Source of the DNA: Paracoccaceae bacterium
Lineage (GTDB): Bacteria; Pseudomonadota; Alphaproteobacteria; Rhodobacterales; Rhodobacteraceae
NCBI GenBank assembly: GCA_027489355.1
Contig: JAIXZY010000022.1
Coordinates: forward strand, 1 to 60,195
DNA: 60,195 bases
Direction: 5' to 3'
The notes under the pieces are model-generated. The model worked only from the letters and a program-made list of their open reading frames with translations. It did no database searches and was not told where the DNA came from. Numbering within the stretch: the first letter of the stretch is position 1; each line of letters starts with the position of its first letter. The position numbers were made by a program, and so were the translations under genes. Positions 45,697-51,635 of the stretch are shown piece by piece.

Positions 45697-47973
45697 ATGA
45701 TGGGACAGGGCTGTGGGCGTGTTTGGGTCACCTTGGCGTTCGCGCTGGTGACATTGGCCCTCACGGGTATCGGGTCCGCCTCGGCCCAATCGCAGCTGGT
45801 GATCGGTGGAGAGGCCGCTGGCACCCTGCAGGACGGCGATCAAGTCCTGAACTCCGGGGAGTATGTCGACGTCTGGACTTTGCAGGGTCGCGCCGGTCAG
45901 CAGGTCACCTTGAGCATGAGTTCGACCGAGATCGACGCCTATCTGATGATACGTGGCCCGTCGGGCTTTGCAGAATGGAACGATGATCGAGCCTCGGGCG
46001 AGTCCAACGCCCGCATCACAGTGCGTTTGCCCGCCGATGGCTTGTACCGCATCAGTGCCACGACCTTCAGGCCGGGTGAAAGCGGAGCCTATCTGATCAG
46101 TGTGATCGAGGGGGGTACCACCTCTGCCGGCCAGGAGGGCGGCGGGGCCATTGCCCTCGGCCAGACCGCGGCGGGCCGACTGGCGCTTGGGGATGATCGG
46201 CTGGAAGCAGGAGAATTCGTCGATCGCTGGACCTTCGCGGGCACACCCGGGCAGGCGTATCAAGTTCGACTGAACTCAGGCGCTTTCGATCCTTACCTTT
46301 TCGTCCGCGGCACGGAACTACGCGCTGACAACGACGACGATGCGTCCGGTCGCGGCGCCGTCAACAGCCGGCTGGAGTTCGTCATGCCTGCCGACGGCGA
46401 GGTGCGCATCTTTGCCACCAGCTACAGGCCCGATGAGATCGGAGACTACGTCCTCGTGCTCGCCGAGGCCGGGGCGGAGCAGGCCGCGCCGGTCGCCGTG
46501 GCCACGACGTCGACCTTGACCCTCGGCCAGACAGTCCGCGGTCGCCTCGATGACGGCGCGCCGACCCTGCGATCCGGCGAGTTCGTGACCTCCTATGCGC
46601 TGCGCGGGCGCGCCGGCGAGCAGATCGAACTGCGCATGCGCTCCGCAGACTTCGACTCCTATCTCTTCATGACCGGCCCCGGCGAGTTCAGCGCCACCAA
46701 CGACGACGACGACAGCGGGGAGGACGGGGTCAACAGCCGGCTCATCGTGACCCTGCCCGCCGACGGCGAATATCAGGTCTATGCCACCAGCTTCGAGCCC
46801 GGCGAGCGCGGCGACTATGCACTGTCAGCGGCCCGGCCGTCTGACGCCGCCATCACGGCCCGGGCCGACGCCGCAATGGCCGCCTTCGATGACGGCGTGC
46901 TGCGCGACGGGGTCCTGGCGCCCGGCGACCGCTCCCAGGACGGTGCCTACGCCGACCGGTTCCAGTTCTCGGGACGCCGGGGCGCCCGCATCGCCCTGAC
47001 GGCCGAGAGCGACGCCTTCGACACGACCCTGTTCCTGCGCGGTCCCGGCGGGGCCGAGGCTGACAACGACGACGGGCCGGACGGCACCAACAGCCGCATC
47101 GACTTCGTCCTGCCCGCCGACGGCGTCTATGACGTCACCGTCAGCTCGTTCGAGGGCGGCCAGACCGGCCCCTATCGCCTGACGGCCGGACTCAGCCTCG
47201 GGACGCCGCGTCAGGCGAGCGTGCCCGGCGGACCCCGCGTCTTTGCCGTCATGGTCGGAATCTCGGACTACGGCGGCTATGCCTCCAACCTTGCCTACAC
47301 GGCCGACGACGCCATCAAACTGGCCGAGGACCTGCGACGCGACGGGCTGCTGAACCCCGCCAGCGTGGTGCTGACCGATGCCGGGGCCACCGTGGCCGGC
47401 GTTCGGGCCGCCTTCGCCCAGGTGGCGGCACAGGCCGGGCCGAACGACATCTTCCTGTTCTTCTACTCCGGACACGGCTCCCAGGTCCGGGGCGCGGCCA
47501 GCGCCTTGGAACTGGACGGGATGACCGAGACCATCGTCATGGTCGATGGCCAGATCAGCGACGCCGAAATGGCCCAGATGTTCGCCTCGGTGAACACGCG
47601 CATGTCCATGATCGTGCTGGACAGCTGCTTCTCCGGCGGGTTCGCGCGCAATGTGGTCAGCCGCGCCGGCATCATCGGACTGTTCAGCTCCGAAGAGGAC
47701 CTGACCAGCCAGGTGGCGGTCAAATTCCAGGCCGGGGGCTATCTGTCCCACTTCGTCCGCACCGGTCTGGGCGGAGAGGCCAACGCCGACGGGGACGACA
47801 TGATCACCGCCGGCGAGCTGACCCAGTACGTCCGCCGCAAATATGCGACCGAGGTCACGGCCTATGATGTCGGCGGCCAGACCATCGACGGCCAGCGCAG
47901 CTATCAGAACCTCGTGGTCGAGCGCGGCGGGGTGCAGGTGGACGATGTGGTGGTCCGGGTGGGACGAGGCTGA
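45697..47973 (+). CDS. Secreted caspase-family protein with four PPC-like repeats and an EF-hand
   Basis: A 758-residue protein. Signal peptide to about residue 31. Four tandem beta-rich units of about 110 residues follow, each with L-x-x-G-(E/D)-(F/Y)-x-D/T-x-(W/Y/F)-x-L/F-x-G, then DD-x-x-S/G-x-NS/NAR and LPADG, the pattern of bacterial pre-peptidase C-terminal domains. From about residue 510 a peptidase C14 domain begins (VFAVMVGISDYGG) with the His in YSGHGSQ (His593) and the Cys in LDSCFSGG (Cys644). NADGDDMITAGEL near residue 695 looks like an EF-hand loop. Extracytoplasmic orthocaspase; substrate unknown. Convergent with bufD nine bases away. Confidence 0.88.
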   Translation: MMGQGCGRVWVTLAFALVTLALTGIGSASAQSQLVIGGEAAGTLQDGDQVLNSGEYVDVWTLQGRAGQQVTLSMSSTEIDAYLMIRGPSGFAEWNDDRASGESNARITVRLPADGLYRISATTFRPGESGAYLISVIEGGTTSAGQEGGGAIALGQTAAGRLALGDDRLEAGEFVDRWTFAGTPGQAYQVRLNSGAFDPYLFVRGTELRADNDDDASGRGAVNSRLEFVMPADGEVRIFATSYRPDEIGDYVLVLAEAGAEQAAPVAVATTSTLTLGQTVRGRLDDGAPTLRSGEFVTSYALRGRAGEQIELRMRSADFDSYLFMTGPGEFSATNDDDDSGEDGVNSRLIVTLPADGEYQVYATSFEPGERGDYALSAARPSDAAITARADAAMAAFDDGVLRDGVLAPGDRSQDGAYADRFQFSGRRGARIALTAESDAFDTTLFLRGPGGAEADNDDGPDGTNSRIDFVLPADGVYDVTVSSFEGGQTGPYRLTAGLSLGTPRQASVPGGPRVFAVMVGISDYGGYASNLAYTADDAIKLAEDLRRDGLLNPASVVLTDAGATVAGVRAAFAQVAAQAGPNDIFLFFYSGHGSQVRGAASALELDGMTETIVMVDGQISDAEMAQMFASVNTRMSMIVLDSCFSGGFARNVVSRAGIIGLFSSEEDLTSQVAVKFQAGGYLSHFVRTGLGGEANADGDDMITAGELTQYVRRKYATEVTAYDVGGQTIDGQRSYQNLVVERGGVQVDDVVVRVGRG

Positions 47974-47982
47974 CGGCTGCCG

Positions 47983-48411
47983 TCAGTCAATCCTCAGCGC
48001 CCGGTCAACGCTCCAGGCGCCCGGACCCCGGGCGATCAGATAGGCCAGCGGACCGGCCCACAGCAGATGGGTCGGCCAGCCGCTTGGCACGACGAACAGC
48101 TGGATCACCAGGGTCATGATCAGCAGGGCCGCGGCCGACAGCCGTGTGGCCAGTCCCAGAATGATAAGGATCGGGAACAGATGCTCCGCATAGGTGGCCA
48201 GATAGGCCGCCGGTATGGGGGCCAGGAAGGGCAGCCGGTACTCCTCCTGGAACAGGTAGAAGGTGGTGTCGGTCAGGGTCAGCAGTCCCTCCACCTTGGT
48301 CCGTGCCGAGAACAGGAAGGGCGCGGCGATGCCGAGCCTGAGCAGCAGGGCCAGGGCGGCCTCGGGCACGGCATGGGTCAGGCTGCCGTGAAGGGTGCGG
48401 ATGGCGTTCAT
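47983..48411 (-). CDS. bufD: BufD, DoxX-family membrane protein
   Basis: A 142-residue inner-membrane protein with about four helices, with LLRLGIAAPFLFSARTKVEG and YAEHLFPILIILGLATRLSA typical of DoxX. Fourth gene of a bufferin operon as described for Caulobacter. Its role in bufferin maturation or metal handling is not settled. ATG 48411 overlaps the bufC stop by four bases. Confidence 0.85.
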   Translation of the reverse strand: MNAIRTLHGSLTHAVPEAALALLLRLGIAAPFLFSARTKVEGLLTLTDTTFYLFQEEYRLPFLAPIPAAYLATYAEHLFPILIILGLATRLSAAALLIMTLVIQLFVVPSGWPTHLLWAGPLAYLIARGPGAWSVDRALRID

Positions 48412-49133
48412 GCGCGGGTGATCTCCGGTTCGAAGGGGGTGAAGAAGCCGGCCTGAACCAGGCCGGTGATCATCTCGACAGCAGAGGCGGCCGGCGCGCG
48501 GCCCTGAGCCGCCGCCATGGCGACGCCGAGAGCCCGTCCCTGGGCGCAGTCGGCCAGGAAGGTCCGCTCCGTCGGAGTCAGGCGCCGCCAGACGACGGCG
48601 TCGCCGGGACGCAGAATGGCGAAGGCCTCGAGCCTCGGCTCCCAGGTCAGGTCGCCCCCGCCGGGCTCCCGATGGGTCAGCCACAGCGATGGCACGCTCC
48701 AGTCGAACTGGAACGGCCGCACCGACGGATGCAGCCGCAGCGGCGAGGCCATCTGCGCCGGTCCGAGGTCGCGGAGATCCGCTGGCGTCAGAACCGGCGC
48801 ATCGACGGTGAGATGCGCCTCGGTCCAGGCCCGGTCGAGGCGCGCCACCGGCCCCAGCCATGGCCATTCCGCGAGCGGGGCGAACTGCTGGAGCCACGCC
48901 GGAAAGGCGTCGCCGTAGATGACCAGGACAGGGTCGGTGGGCGGGTGGAGCCGCGCGAACTCGGCCGCCACTGTGGCAAAGACGTCCTCGCCCAGCATGG
49001 TCTCGATGGTCGGGAAGTTGTCAGCCAGGGCCCGCACCGCGGCCAGAGCCACGCCATTGCGATACACGTCCATGGGACCGCCCGTTCCCGGCGTTTGCAG
49101 GTCCTGCAGGAAGGCGGTGTGAAAGGCGGTCAT
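48408..49133 (-). CDS. bufC: BufC, DUF2063 (HvfC-type) partner protein
   Basis: A 241-residue protein. The DUF2063 domain is at the N-terminus (FHTAFLQDLQTP, DVYRNGVALAAVRALADNFP, PVLVIYGDAFPAWLQQF), followed by a domain resembling those in BufC/HvfC. In known systems this protein partners the MNIO enzyme BufB to modify the precursor's cysteines. Start ATG overlaps the bufB stop by four bases. Confidence 0.9.
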   Translation of the reverse strand: MTAFHTAFLQDLQTPGTGGPMDVYRNGVALAAVRALADNFPTIETMLGEDVFATVAAEFARLHPPTDPVLVIYGDAFPAWLQQFAPLAEWPWLGPVARLDRAWTEAHLTVDAPVLTPADLRDLGPAQMASPLRLHPSVRPFQFDWSVPSLWLTHREPGGGDLTWEPRLEAFAILRPGDAVVWRRLTPTERTFLADCAQGRALGVAMAAAQGRAPAASAVEMITGLVQAGFFTPFEPEITRA

Positions 49134-50002
49134 GCGGCCAGCGCCCGATCCGGATGCGACAGGAGGGCGGCGGCGCGACGACGCTCCGCCAGCAGCGCCT
49201 CAAAGGCCGGAACCGCGCCGTCGCGCTCGATCAGGGTAGGCCGCGGGCCAATCCGGTCGATCAGACGCGCGAACAGCGCCCAGACGGCATCATCCACCGG
49301 CGCGTCATGGGAATCGATCAGCAGGGTCTCGCCGAGGACCGGGTCCGGCCGATGTCCGGCCAGATGGATCTCGCCCACCAGGTCGCCGGGTACGCGGTCG
49401 ATCCAGTCGGCCGCGTCCTGTCCCAGATTGGCCGCGCCGACGAAGACATTGTTGACGTCGACCAGCAGGCCACAGCCGGTCCGGTGCGCCAGTTCGGTGA
49501 GGAAGCCGACCTCGTCCCACTCATGGTCCAGCGCCAGATAGGCGCTCGGGTTCTCGATCAGCAGGGGCCGCCCCAGGGCGTCCTGCGCCTCGGTCACATG
49601 GGCGCACATCAGGGCCAGGGTCTCGTCCGTCCGGGCAACAGGCAGGAGATCGGGCATGTAGACTCCGCCTGCCCGCGACCAGGCCAGATGTTCCGACACC
49701 CGGACCGGCGCGAACCGGTCGATCAGGGCGCGAAACCGGGCCAGATGCGCCGCGTCCGGCCGCTCGGGGCCGGCCAGCGACAGGCCGACTCCATGCAGGG
49801 ACAGGGGCGTCTCGGCACCGATCGCAGCGAGCCAGGTCAGACGCGGCCCGCCGTCGACCATATAGTTTTCCGGGTGAACCTCGAACCAGAGGCCCGCCTC
49901 GTGACCGGCCGCCGCACAGGCGAGGGCATCCGCATAGTGCTGCGGTTTCAGCCCCAGCCCTGCCGAGGGGAAGAGCGGTGCGACGGCCGATCGGGGGGTC
50001 AT
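49130..50002 (-). CDS. bufB: BufB, MNIO-family (DUF692) peptide-modifying oxidase
   Basis: A 290-residue TIM-barrel protein. Iron-ligand regions are visible: FEVHPENY, SLHGVGLSL, SEHLAWSR, LIENPSAYL, DVNNVFVGA, EIHLAGHRPDP and LLIDSHDAPV. MNIO enzymes use two or three irons to oxidise cysteines of a small precursor; for bufferins the cysteines become thiooxazoles that bind copper. Start lies seven bases after the bufA stop. Confidence 0.93.
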   Translation of the reverse strand: MTPRSAVAPLFPSAGLGLKPQHYADALACAAAGHEAGLWFEVHPENYMVDGGPRLTWLAAIGAETPLSLHGVGLSLAGPERPDAAHLARFRALIDRFAPVRVSEHLAWSRAGGVYMPDLLPVARTDETLALMCAHVTEAQDALGRPLLIENPSAYLALDHEWDEVGFLTELAHRTGCGLLVDVNNVFVGAANLGQDAADWIDRVPGDLVGEIHLAGHRPDPVLGETLLIDSHDAPVDDAVWALFARLIDRIGPRPTLIERDGAVPAFEALLAERRRAAALLSHPDRALAA

Positions 50003-50009
50003 CGCCGGA

Positions 50010-50309
50010 TCAGCGGTTGGCGATGGGCGTCAGCGAGCCGTTGCCGCGCGGCGTCTCGATGCGCGTGCAGGTGCCCTTGGGAACCAGCTTCCAGGCATTG
50101 CCCTGCCAGTCGCGGGTCGAGGTTCCTGCGCAGGAGGTCCCGGGGCCGGCGGCGCAATCGTTCTGCCCGGCGCGCGACACGCCATAGCACTTTTCCTTTT
50201 CCGCATCCTGGGCATCGAAGGCCGGGGCGGACGGGGCGGCGAAGGCCGCGGCACCGGCGGTCAGGGTGGCCAGGGCGGCGCCGGCGGCGGTCAGGGCGAG
50301 GGTCTTCAT
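50010..50309 (-). CDS. bufA: BufA, bufferin precursor (DUF2282)
   Basis: A 99-residue exported peptide: signal peptide of about 24 residues (ends A-A-F-A), then [20 protein letters not shown] and [20 protein letters not shown] followed by KGTC. Four cysteines at 41, 52, 60 and 81 match the DUF2282 core. The modified peptide would sequester copper in the periplasm. The promoter upstream is SigF-type. First gene of bufA-bufB-bufC-bufD. Confidence 0.93.
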
Positions 50310-50356
50310 GGGTGTCTCCTGTGGGGGTGCCCGCTCATCGGCGGGTCGAGACTGAG

Positions 50357-50382
50357 TTCGCCGGGCACCCCCCGCCGGTTAC
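50357..50382 (-). promoter_or_regulatory. SigF-type promoter of bufABCD
   Basis: On the minus strand GTAACC (50377-50382), 16 bases, CGAA (50357-50360): an exact match to the -35/-10 pattern reported for Caulobacter SigF. Transcription would start about 40 bases upstream of the bufA ATG. Confidence 0.85.
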
Positions 50383-50428
50383 GCCCGGCGCCCGGAAAAA
50401 TCGGCTGGCGGCTCTCACGAACGACCCT

Positions 50429-50454
50429 GTAACCTCCGACCGCATGGCGGCGTA
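50429..50454 (+). promoter_or_regulatory. SigF-type promoter of sigF-nrsF
   Basis: GTAACC (50429-50434), 16 bases, CGTA (50451-50454): one mismatch in the -10. It suggests autoregulation of sigF. The expected start is only some bases before the GTG 50467, so the leader would be very short. Confidence 0.7.
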
Positions 50455-50466
50455 GTCGGGGGCGAC

Positions 50467-51006
50467 GTGGTCGAACGGGAAGCCCATCTCAAGCGTCTGA
50501 TGATCGGCGGCCTGAACGGCGACGCCGCGGCCTGGCGCGCGCTGCTGACGGAGCTGAGAGGACCGCTGACGGTCTTCTTCCGCCAACGGATGGGTGGGCG
50601 CGAGGCCGACGTCGAGGATTTGATTCAGGAGACCTTGATCGCCGTGCATGCCAAGCGCGCCACCTACGACCCCGCCCTGCCCTTCACCGCCTGGGCCTAT
50701 GCCGTCGCGCGCCACAAGATGATCGACGCGATGCGCCGCCAGGCGCGTCGCCCGACCTCTCCGCTGGAGGACGCGGGCGAGCCTGCCGCCGACCATACGG
50801 TCGAGGACGGGGCGATGCGCCGTGACCTTGCCAGGGTCCTGTCCCTGCTGCCCGCCCGCCAGAGGCGGCTGATCGAGGACGTCCGCATCGGCGGATTCAG
50901 CATGGCCGAGGCCGCGGCCCGCAATGGCCTCACCGAAGGTGCCGCCAAGGTCAGTGTCCATCGCGGCCTGAAGGCCCTGATGGCCAGAATGGGGGCTGGT
51001 TCATGA
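50467..51006 (+). CDS. sigF: ECF sigma factor SigF
   Basis: A 179-residue ECF sigma factor. Region 2 has DVEDLIQETLIAVHAKRATY and FTAWAYAVARHKMIDAMRRQ; region 4 has LLPARQRRLIEDVRIGGFSM and EGAAKVSVHRGLKALMARMG. In Caulobacter SigF controls the bufferin-type operons in response to metal/oxidative stress and is held by NrsF. Here it is divergent from bufA and overlaps nrsF by four bases (ATGA). GTG 50467 is the farthest upstream start; ATG 50500 is an alternative. Confidence 0.92.
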   Translation: MVEREAHLKRLMIGGLNGDAAAWRALLTELRGPLTVFFRQRMGGREADVEDLIQETLIAVHAKRATYDPALPFTAWAYAVARHKMIDAMRRQARRPTSPLEDAGEPAADHTVEDGAMRRDLARVLSLLPARQRRLIEDVRIGGFSMAEAAARNGLTEGAAKVSVHRGLKALMARMGAGS

Positions 51007-51635
51007 AGACGGACGATCTCATCGAGGCCCTGGCCCTCGGCCTGGAGCCCGCCCGCCCGGCGCGGCCCGCGCCCCTGTGGCTGGCCCTCGCCTTTCTGGT
51101 CGCCGCCGCCGCCGTGCTGGCGACGCTCGGTCCCCGCGGCGACCTGGGCGAAGCCGTGACCGGCGCGAACTTCTGGCTGAAGGCGACCTATACGGCGGCG
51201 CTGTCGGCCGCCGCCCTGTGGTGGCTGGCCCGGCTCGGCCGGCCCGGGGCCTCCGCCCGGCGCCCGGCCCTTGCCCTTGCCGCCGTCGTCATGGTGGCCG
51301 CCGCTGCGGGCGCGGTCGAACTGCTCCGCCTGCCGGCCGAGCTTCGCCTCGACGACCTGCTCGGCTGGAGCTGGCGCGAATGCTCTCTGAACATCCTCGG
51401 CAGCGCCCTGATCGCCGCGCCCATGGTCTGGCTGTCGGCAAGACGCCTTGCTCCGACCCGGCCGGCTATGTCCGGCGCCGCCTTGGGCGCGGTCTCCGGC
51501 GGACTGGCAGCCACCGCCTACGGCCTGCACTGCCCGGAAGCCACCGCCGCCTTCGTGGCCGTCTGGTACACCCTCGGCGTGGCTGCCGCGGCGGCCCTCG
51601 GTGCCGCAGTGGGGCGGGTGGCCTTGCGCTGGTGA
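51003..51635 (+). CDS. nrsF: Anti-sigma factor NrsF (DUF1109)
   Basis: A 210-residue protein with six hydrophobic helices and little else, as DUF1109/NrsF. Two cysteines in otherwise Cys-poor sequence (RECSLN, Cys127; GLHCPEA, Cys177) correspond in placement to the two Cys that make Caulobacter NrsF responsive. It would bind SigF at the inner membrane and release it under stress. Convergent with ilvE, five bases apart. Confidence 0.92.
   Translation: MKTDDLIEALALGLEPARPARPAPLWLALAFLVAAAAVLATLGPRGDLGEAVTGANFWLKATYTAALSAAALWWLARLGRPGASARRPALALAAVVMVAAAAGAVELLRLPAELRLDDLLGWSWRECSLNILGSALIAAPMVWLSARRLAPTRPAMSGAALGAVSGGLAATAYGLHCPEATAAFVAVWYTLGVAAAAALGAAVGRVALRW

Follow-up and report, generated by a model that had tools for sequence, protein, structure and literature searches.

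A bufferin-1 operon facing sigF-nrsF and the SigF-type promoters of its relatives

Introduction

Is a copper-binding peptide operon that faces a sigma factor and its anti-sigma factor a new stress unit, or another copy of one already known? This question is raised by positions 47983-51635 of contig JAIXZY010000022.1 (assembly GCA_027489355.1), a stretch of 60,195 nucleotides (nt) that was analysed as a whole and is called the window below. In a preliminary description the locus was read as a bufferin operon, bufA-bufB-bufC-bufD, divergent from the genes for SigF, an extracytoplasmic function (ECF) sigma factor, and for its anti-sigma factor NrsF. Our analysis agrees with these coordinates and with the identity of all six genes, whose products carry the expected Pfam domains, each over its curated cut-off. 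With high confidence, though by analogy, we regard the locus as an orthologue of the SigF/NrsF-bufferin-1 locus of Caulobacter (CC3252-CC3257), which would produce a copper-binding peptide under the control of SigF and NrsF. Because the genes, the divergent layout and the promoters were already described in 2012 (Kohler et al., 2012; PMC3511200), the window holds a new orthologue and not a new system: it is one more example of the known Caulobacter arrangement. It contributes one intact example of a system for copper protection that is widely distributed, and the pair of SigF promoters is confirmed.

Results and discussion

The two SigF-type promoters

Matching promoters on both sides of the intergenic region had been claimed, and they are exact: GTAACC-N16-CGAA precedes bufABCD (50357..50382, minus strand) and GTAACC-N16-CGTA precedes sigF-nrsF (50429..50454, plus strand). 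The pattern GTAACC-N16-CG(A/T)A occurs only twice on the two strands of the window, both times within the 157 nt between bufA and sigF, while 100 dinucleotide shuffles of the window gave 0.07 matches on average and none of them had two. An ECF sigma factor beside a DUF1109/NrsF protein with two conserved Cys, and promoters resembling GTAACC-N16-CGAA, mark the ECF16 group; judging from its partner and its promoters, SigF of the window is of the ECF16 type. In our SigF tree it groups with SigF of Caulobacteraceae.

We compared the window with related loci (numbered L), the best 80 of at least 471 confirmed stretches. A sigF-like match lies nearby in 61 of them and an NrsF match in 49; in 42, bufA and sigF are direct divergent neighbours no more than 500 nt apart. 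The exact GTAACC-N16-CG(A/T)A box stands upstream of bufA in 28/80, and 16 of the 61 loci with a sigF match have it before sigF. Most of the sigF-bearing loci lacking the exact bufA box (25/33) carry GTAACG or GTAACA before bufA; these are mainly Rhodobacterales and Hyphomicrobiales.

An A/T-rich tract lies between the two -35 elements of the window (6 bases in a row; shuffle fraction 0.01), but only 23/35 promoter pairs are richer in A/T between these elements than in the flanks. A perfect inverted repeat of 11 bp (50323-50333 and 50362-50372), which spans the -10 element of bufA, was rejected as a candidate element, the nearest relatives, L003 and L007, being without it as judged by eye. An RNA hairpin from this repeat is also unlikely, because its right arm falls in the promoter spacer.

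The six gene products

The bufferin operon occupies 50309 to 47983 of the minus strand, and sigF-nrsF 50467 to 51635 of the plus strand. bufA and bufB are 7 nt apart, and bufB/bufC, bufC/bufD and sigF/nrsF overlap by 4 nt each. The six reading frames are uninterrupted and complete, and their key residues are conserved.

BufA (50010..50309, minus strand; 99 residues) is a DUF2282 precursor (PF10048, 89 bits) with a Sec-type signal peptide, as judged by eye. Its four Cys (41, 52, 60 and 81), counted already in the preliminary description, are invariant in all 81 aligned sequences (the window and the 80 relatives). These are the features of a bufferin-1 precursor, whereas the model for BufA2, the bufferin-2 precursor with 6/12 Cys, gave 24.6 bits against a cut-off of 60. 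BufB (49130..50002, minus strand; 290 residues; PF05114, 304 bits) is an MNIO maturase of the BufB type, passing the NCBIfam equivalog NF050167 (MNIO_BufB) with 337.7 bits over the cut-off of 310. It keeps all 18 H/D/E/N/C positions that are conserved in at least 97% of 78 BufB proteins, and it matches the 3bww and MbnB structures by sequence. BufC (48408..49133, minus strand; 241 residues) is the DUF2063 partner protein (PF09836, 57 bits, over the cut-off); its sequence had no match in the PDB up to E 1. In a Buf1 cluster the partner protein would also carry an RRE-type domain. BufD (47983..48411, minus strand; PF07681, 54.6 bits) is a DoxX-family membrane protein of 142 residues when read from the ATG at 48411, which suits the overlap with bufC better than the upstream GTG at which the listed open reading frame (ORF) begins.

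SigF (50467..51006, plus strand; 179 residues from a GTG start) carries PF04542 (Sigma70_r2, 56 bits) and PF08281. NrsF (51003..51635, plus strand; 210 residues; PF06532, 174.5 bits, over the cut-off) has exactly two Cys, 127 and 177. They are the pair that had been singled out as key residues, and they are invariant in 50/50 sequences.

Comparison with known systems

In Caulobacter, CC3254-CC3257 are divergent from sigF-CC3252, and the promoters GTAACC-N16-CGAA were mapped by 5'RACE for CC3254 and supported by lacZ reporter fusions for both sides; the key Cys of NrsF are C131 and C181 (PMC3511200). The window is thus like Caulobacter vibrioides in gene content, order, divergence, promoter sequence and the two NrsF Cys, a likeness taken from the description in that paper and not from an alignment with the Caulobacter sequences; it differs in the -10 element of sigF. 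Moreover, a copper transcriptome study places msrPQ and another bufferin-like operon under SigF in Caulobacter (PMC8224329), whereas the window comes from a bin that appears chimeric, in which neither such an operon nor an msrPQ target could be demonstrated. On both counts the preliminary description, in which the whole unit forms a self-contained metal-stress module, goes too far.

The Buf1 family is reported to be associated with a sigma factor and NrsF (Antoine et al., 2025; PMC12452194). The gig/dax operon of Cupriavidus metallidurans, of the Buf1 type, is a bufferin cluster like that of the window according to the descriptions available (PMC12452194; PMC8224329), but it is known mainly as induced by gold and copper (PMC12452194). 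RpoE7-EcfR7 and SMb20530-SMb20527 of Sinorhizobium similarly comprise an ECF16 sigma factor, an anti-sigma factor and a DUF692/DUF2063 operon (PMC6180224), with GTAACA as the -35 element instead of GTAACC. The captophorins (HvfA/oxazolin, fontiphorin and gonophorin) share the formation of 5-thiooxazole from Cys by an MNIO enzyme and the link to copper (Gadgil et al., 2026; PMC13097082), but their precursor families differ from the DUF2282 family of BufA.

Proposed mechanism and alternative explanations

By analogy with these systems, NrsF would hold SigF inactive at the membrane until metal stress, acting via the two conserved Cys (chromate in Caulobacter, presumably a metal here too), releases it. 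The released SigF would fire both divergent promoters. BufA would be made with its Sec signal; BufB with its partner BufC would oxidise the central C52 and C60 to 5-thiooxazoles, C41 and C81 would pair as a disulfide, and the exported peptide would bind copper in the periplasm. BufD may be an accessory membrane protein. For Buf1, modification of the two central Cys and a disulfide between the first and the last are given in the legend of Fig. 3 of Antoine et al. (PMC12452194), and a 5-thiooxazole, with absorbance near 305 nm, has been reported for bufferin-1 (PMC13097082). The preliminary description had proposed thiooxazoles made from cysteines. This agrees with the published chemistry, but not for all four Cys: going by Buf1 only C52 and C60 would be targets in the window, the outer pair being left for the disulfide. 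The mass loss that it had named, about 4 Da per modified Cys, agrees with the -4 Da reported for fontiphorin (PMC13097082).

The link to copper, which was also part of that description, is supported by orthology: in Caulobacter copper induces the whole SigF regulon and loss of sigF makes the cells sensitive to copper (PMC8224329). For the window, copper is suggested as the main signal by analogy only, because the orthologous systems differ in inducer. The same module may instead answer naturally to another metal or an oxidant, such as chromate, cadmium, gold or peroxide, with copper as a secondary signal. Caulobacter SigF responds to Cr and Cd (PMC3511200), EcfF/OsrA of Bradyrhizobium responds to H2O2 (PMC3420878) and the gig operons are induced by gold (PMC12452194). 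On the other hand, the Caulobacter sigF mutant was clearly affected by Cu and not by Cr or Cd (PMC8224329), and we consider a signal other than copper unlikely.

Several other points weigh against the SigF/NrsF-bufferin-1 assignment or the mechanism drawn from it. The evidence for the window is sequence evidence throughout. The -10 element of sigF is CGTA rather than CGAA, a variant that is also found in L003 and L007. NrsF falls under the NCBIfam equivalog NF042994 (164.8 against 300 bits), BufC under the HvfC model (30.7 against a cut-off of 142) and BufD under the HvfX model (48.4 against 80). No sigF match lies nearby in 19/80 relatives. Finally, neither H2O2 nor Cd nor chromate is reported to induce RpoE7 of Sinorhizobium (PMC6180224), a difference in inducer that adds to the peroxide response of Bradyrhizobium EcfF/OsrA.

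It is also conceivable that the locus is degenerate or silent, through an artefact of a metagenome-assembled genome, a frameshift or a lost promoter, and the contig does seem to be out of place in its bin. We hold this for very improbable, since the six frames are full-length with their key residues, both promoters are exact, and L003 and L007 carry the same genes with caspase and ilvE neighbours. As for the two GTAACC-N16 boxes being chance matches and the operon being run by a housekeeping promoter, counts over the whole bin would fit: exact matches numbered 4 against 3 for the reversed pattern, and one-mismatch matches 163 against 139. However, the two boxes lie in one intergenic region of 157 nt, one per strand and at promoter distance, and they recur in position and sequence in Caulobacterales, Sphingomonadales and some Beta- and Gammaproteobacteria, so that this explanation has next to no probability in our view.

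Origin of the contig

The window spans contig C5 of bin G000 (4.2 Mb in 81 contigs) from end to end, and some caution is needed as this contig seems not to belong there. The ilvE product of the window is 95% and 93% identical to those of L003 and L007, and 88-71% identical to those of four further loci, Brevundimonas among them. The bin has a second ilvE on contig C7, 57% identical to that of the window, and 11 of the 12 genus-mates examined have one at 56-60%; the twelfth, a genome 59% complete, gave no match. Other copies of dxs in the bin reach 66% (C7) and 61% (C19), and 9/10 genus-mates reach 61-67%, in a search confined to the bin and its genus-mates. FlhA of the window is 94% identical to that of the L003 and L007 genomes, in which a single contig carries both the FlhA gene and the bufferin promoter. 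The bin has no other FlhA, an absence that does not decide the matter as genus-mates were not searched for FlhA.

The tetranucleotide profile is closer to Brevundimonas-type loci (0.963) than to the other contigs of the bin (0.938), but the value against L003 and L007 alone, two short loci, is 0.901, below that of the bin contigs. At 0.675, the G+C content falls inside the span of values of the other contigs. NrsF is found in 14 of 32 genomes of the genus, this bin included, and three loci of genus-mates have sigF-nrsF with no match to bufA or bufB in the 5-6 kb fetched. The contig starts with a cut 16S rRNA gene, a usual place for assembly breaks.

Taken together, the contig appears to be misbinned, carrying ilvE and FlhA of Caulobacteraceae type in the bin of another genus that has ilvE and dxs of its own type. 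The real host is most likely a member of Caulobacteraceae close to Brevundimonas. That the bin contains a single bufferin operon and a single NrsF therefore says little about this host.

Possible further targets of SigF

A search of the bin for a wider SigF regulon lost its meaning because the bin is doubtful. One-mismatch matches to the CGAA form (62 plus 101) were set against 72 plus 67 for the reversed pattern, and the two exact matches of the bin outside the intergenic region fall within long open frames. The 600 nt upstream of msrP hold no site at up to two mismatches; one two-mismatch site lies within msrP, and 18% of trials with shuffled sequence had one or more. In eight Caulobacteraceae and related genomes, reached through L003, L006, L007, L009, L012, L013, L020 and L023, there are 22 occurrences of GTAACC-N16-CGAA. 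The bufferin locus accounts for 14, and the other eight do not exceed the 13 obtained with the reversed pattern.

Three of these eight exact boxes (L174, L175 and L176, position 1501), each present in one genome only, stand shortly upstream of a gene: one for a VTT-domain protein at 11 nt, one for a cytochrome b561 at 22 nt and one for a thioredoxin-like protein at 57 nt. A fourth, in L166, lies 100 nt ahead of an ORF of 134 residues.

Two clades of SigF

We aligned 60 SigF sequences, those of the window and of 59 loci (L035 and L071, with short or weak matches, were dropped from the 61), and built the tree without the recognition helix. Position 161, in the region-4 recognition helix, is Lys in 30 sequences and Arg in 29, with one gap (L020). 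Where a GTAAC-type bufA box is readable, the sixth base of the -35 element is C in 27/29 K161 rows, the exceptions L014 and L057 having GTAACG, and G or A in 23/23 R161 rows; the two promoters of a locus agree on this base in 31/35. On the sequence evidence, SigF falls in two clades, K161 with mostly GTAACC, to which the window belongs, and R161 with GTAACG or GTAACA. The variant GTAAC(g,a) was already published for Bradyrhizobium EcfF (PMC3420878).

The idea that residue 161 and the sixth base form a specificity code was rejected. The tree shows one change of the residue against three of the base, leaving one independent pair, and the covariation is a single tree event. As the residue split is one event, no cause and effect can be read from it, and it serves as a description of two clades.

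A palindrome on the promoters of the sister clade

We noticed by eye a palindrome, TCACG-N4-CGTGA, in the stretch that separates the two -35 elements in R161 loci. At up to two mismatches it is present in 20/25 R161 bufferin promoters and 0/29 K161 rows including the window, a count drawn from the same data in which it was first seen. The loci with the palindrome are L019, L024, L026-L029, L031, L037, L038, L045, L051, L052, L054, L055, L059, L061-L063, L075 and L079, and those without it L022, L039, L049, L053 and L060. In 18 of the 20 it ends 4-6 nt upstream of the bufA -35 element. Within 300 nt upstream of bufA and at up to one mismatch, 14/29 R161 and 0/29 other K161 loci have it, and three control palindromes gave no match in either group. 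The remaining 277,875 nt of the R161 loci contain the motif 6 times. The only match in the window at up to one mismatch (48378) lies inside bufD and not upstream of bufA.

A separate test used 12 plasmid loci (from 60 listed of 306 matching records), eleven of Rhodobacterales or Hyphomicrobiales and one of Sphingobium. In the 610 nt around and upstream of bufA, 6/11 of the former have the palindrome at up to one mismatch (L184, L187 and L189-L192), against 0, 1 and 0 for the controls. L187, of S. meliloti, has the same genes as the window. At this threshold it is missing from L183 and L185 (one species), L186 and L188. With two mismatches, a site lies near the -35 element in L182, and in L183 and L186 away from it. 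The Sphingobium locus has no site at up to two mismatches.

Being near the R161 -35 element, the palindrome would therefore bind a second, dimeric regulator that acts together with SigF. A simple activator model is weakened, because the palindrome lies 11-15 nt from the -35 element in the five readable plasmid cases against 4-6 nt in the first set, and because no SigF box is recognisable beside the palindrome of L184 and L191. We found no mention of it in the literature searched, nor by term searches of the Sinorhizobium (PMC6180224) and Bradyrhizobium (PMC3420878) papers.

We propose, giving the idea about even odds, that bufferin-1 operons exist in two regulatory versions. One, to which the window belongs, would have K161 SigF and GTAACC, with no further operator seen; the other, in many Rhodobacterales and part of Hyphomicrobiales, would have R161 SigF and GTAACG or GTAACA plus the palindrome, at which the second regulator would act with SigF. 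The sequence pattern is well supported, and the regulator with its role is our proposal. If true, it could reveal a co-regulator of copper-buffering peptides.

Variants and neighbours

Six of the plasmid bufferin operons (L182, L183, L184, L185, L189 and L191) have no sigF-nrsF match in their 4-kb stretch. In a layout variant, bufB is on the opposite strand to bufA and bufD follows bufA (L010, L014, L015, L017, L018, L025, L030, L042, L056 and L057); these are mainly Sphingomonadales (L056 is Luteimonas), and sigF is downstream in 9/10. Five Marinomonas loci (L064, L067, L070, L071 and L072) have GTAAGA-N16-CGTC before bufA and no sigF nearby, apart from a 39-bit match in L071; their bufA is perhaps under another ECF sigma factor. 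Beside the operon of the window, a convergent gene (45697-47973) ends 9 nt from bufD and encodes PPC repeats and a caspase (Peptidase_C14) domain; its homologue in L003 and L007 is 74% identical.

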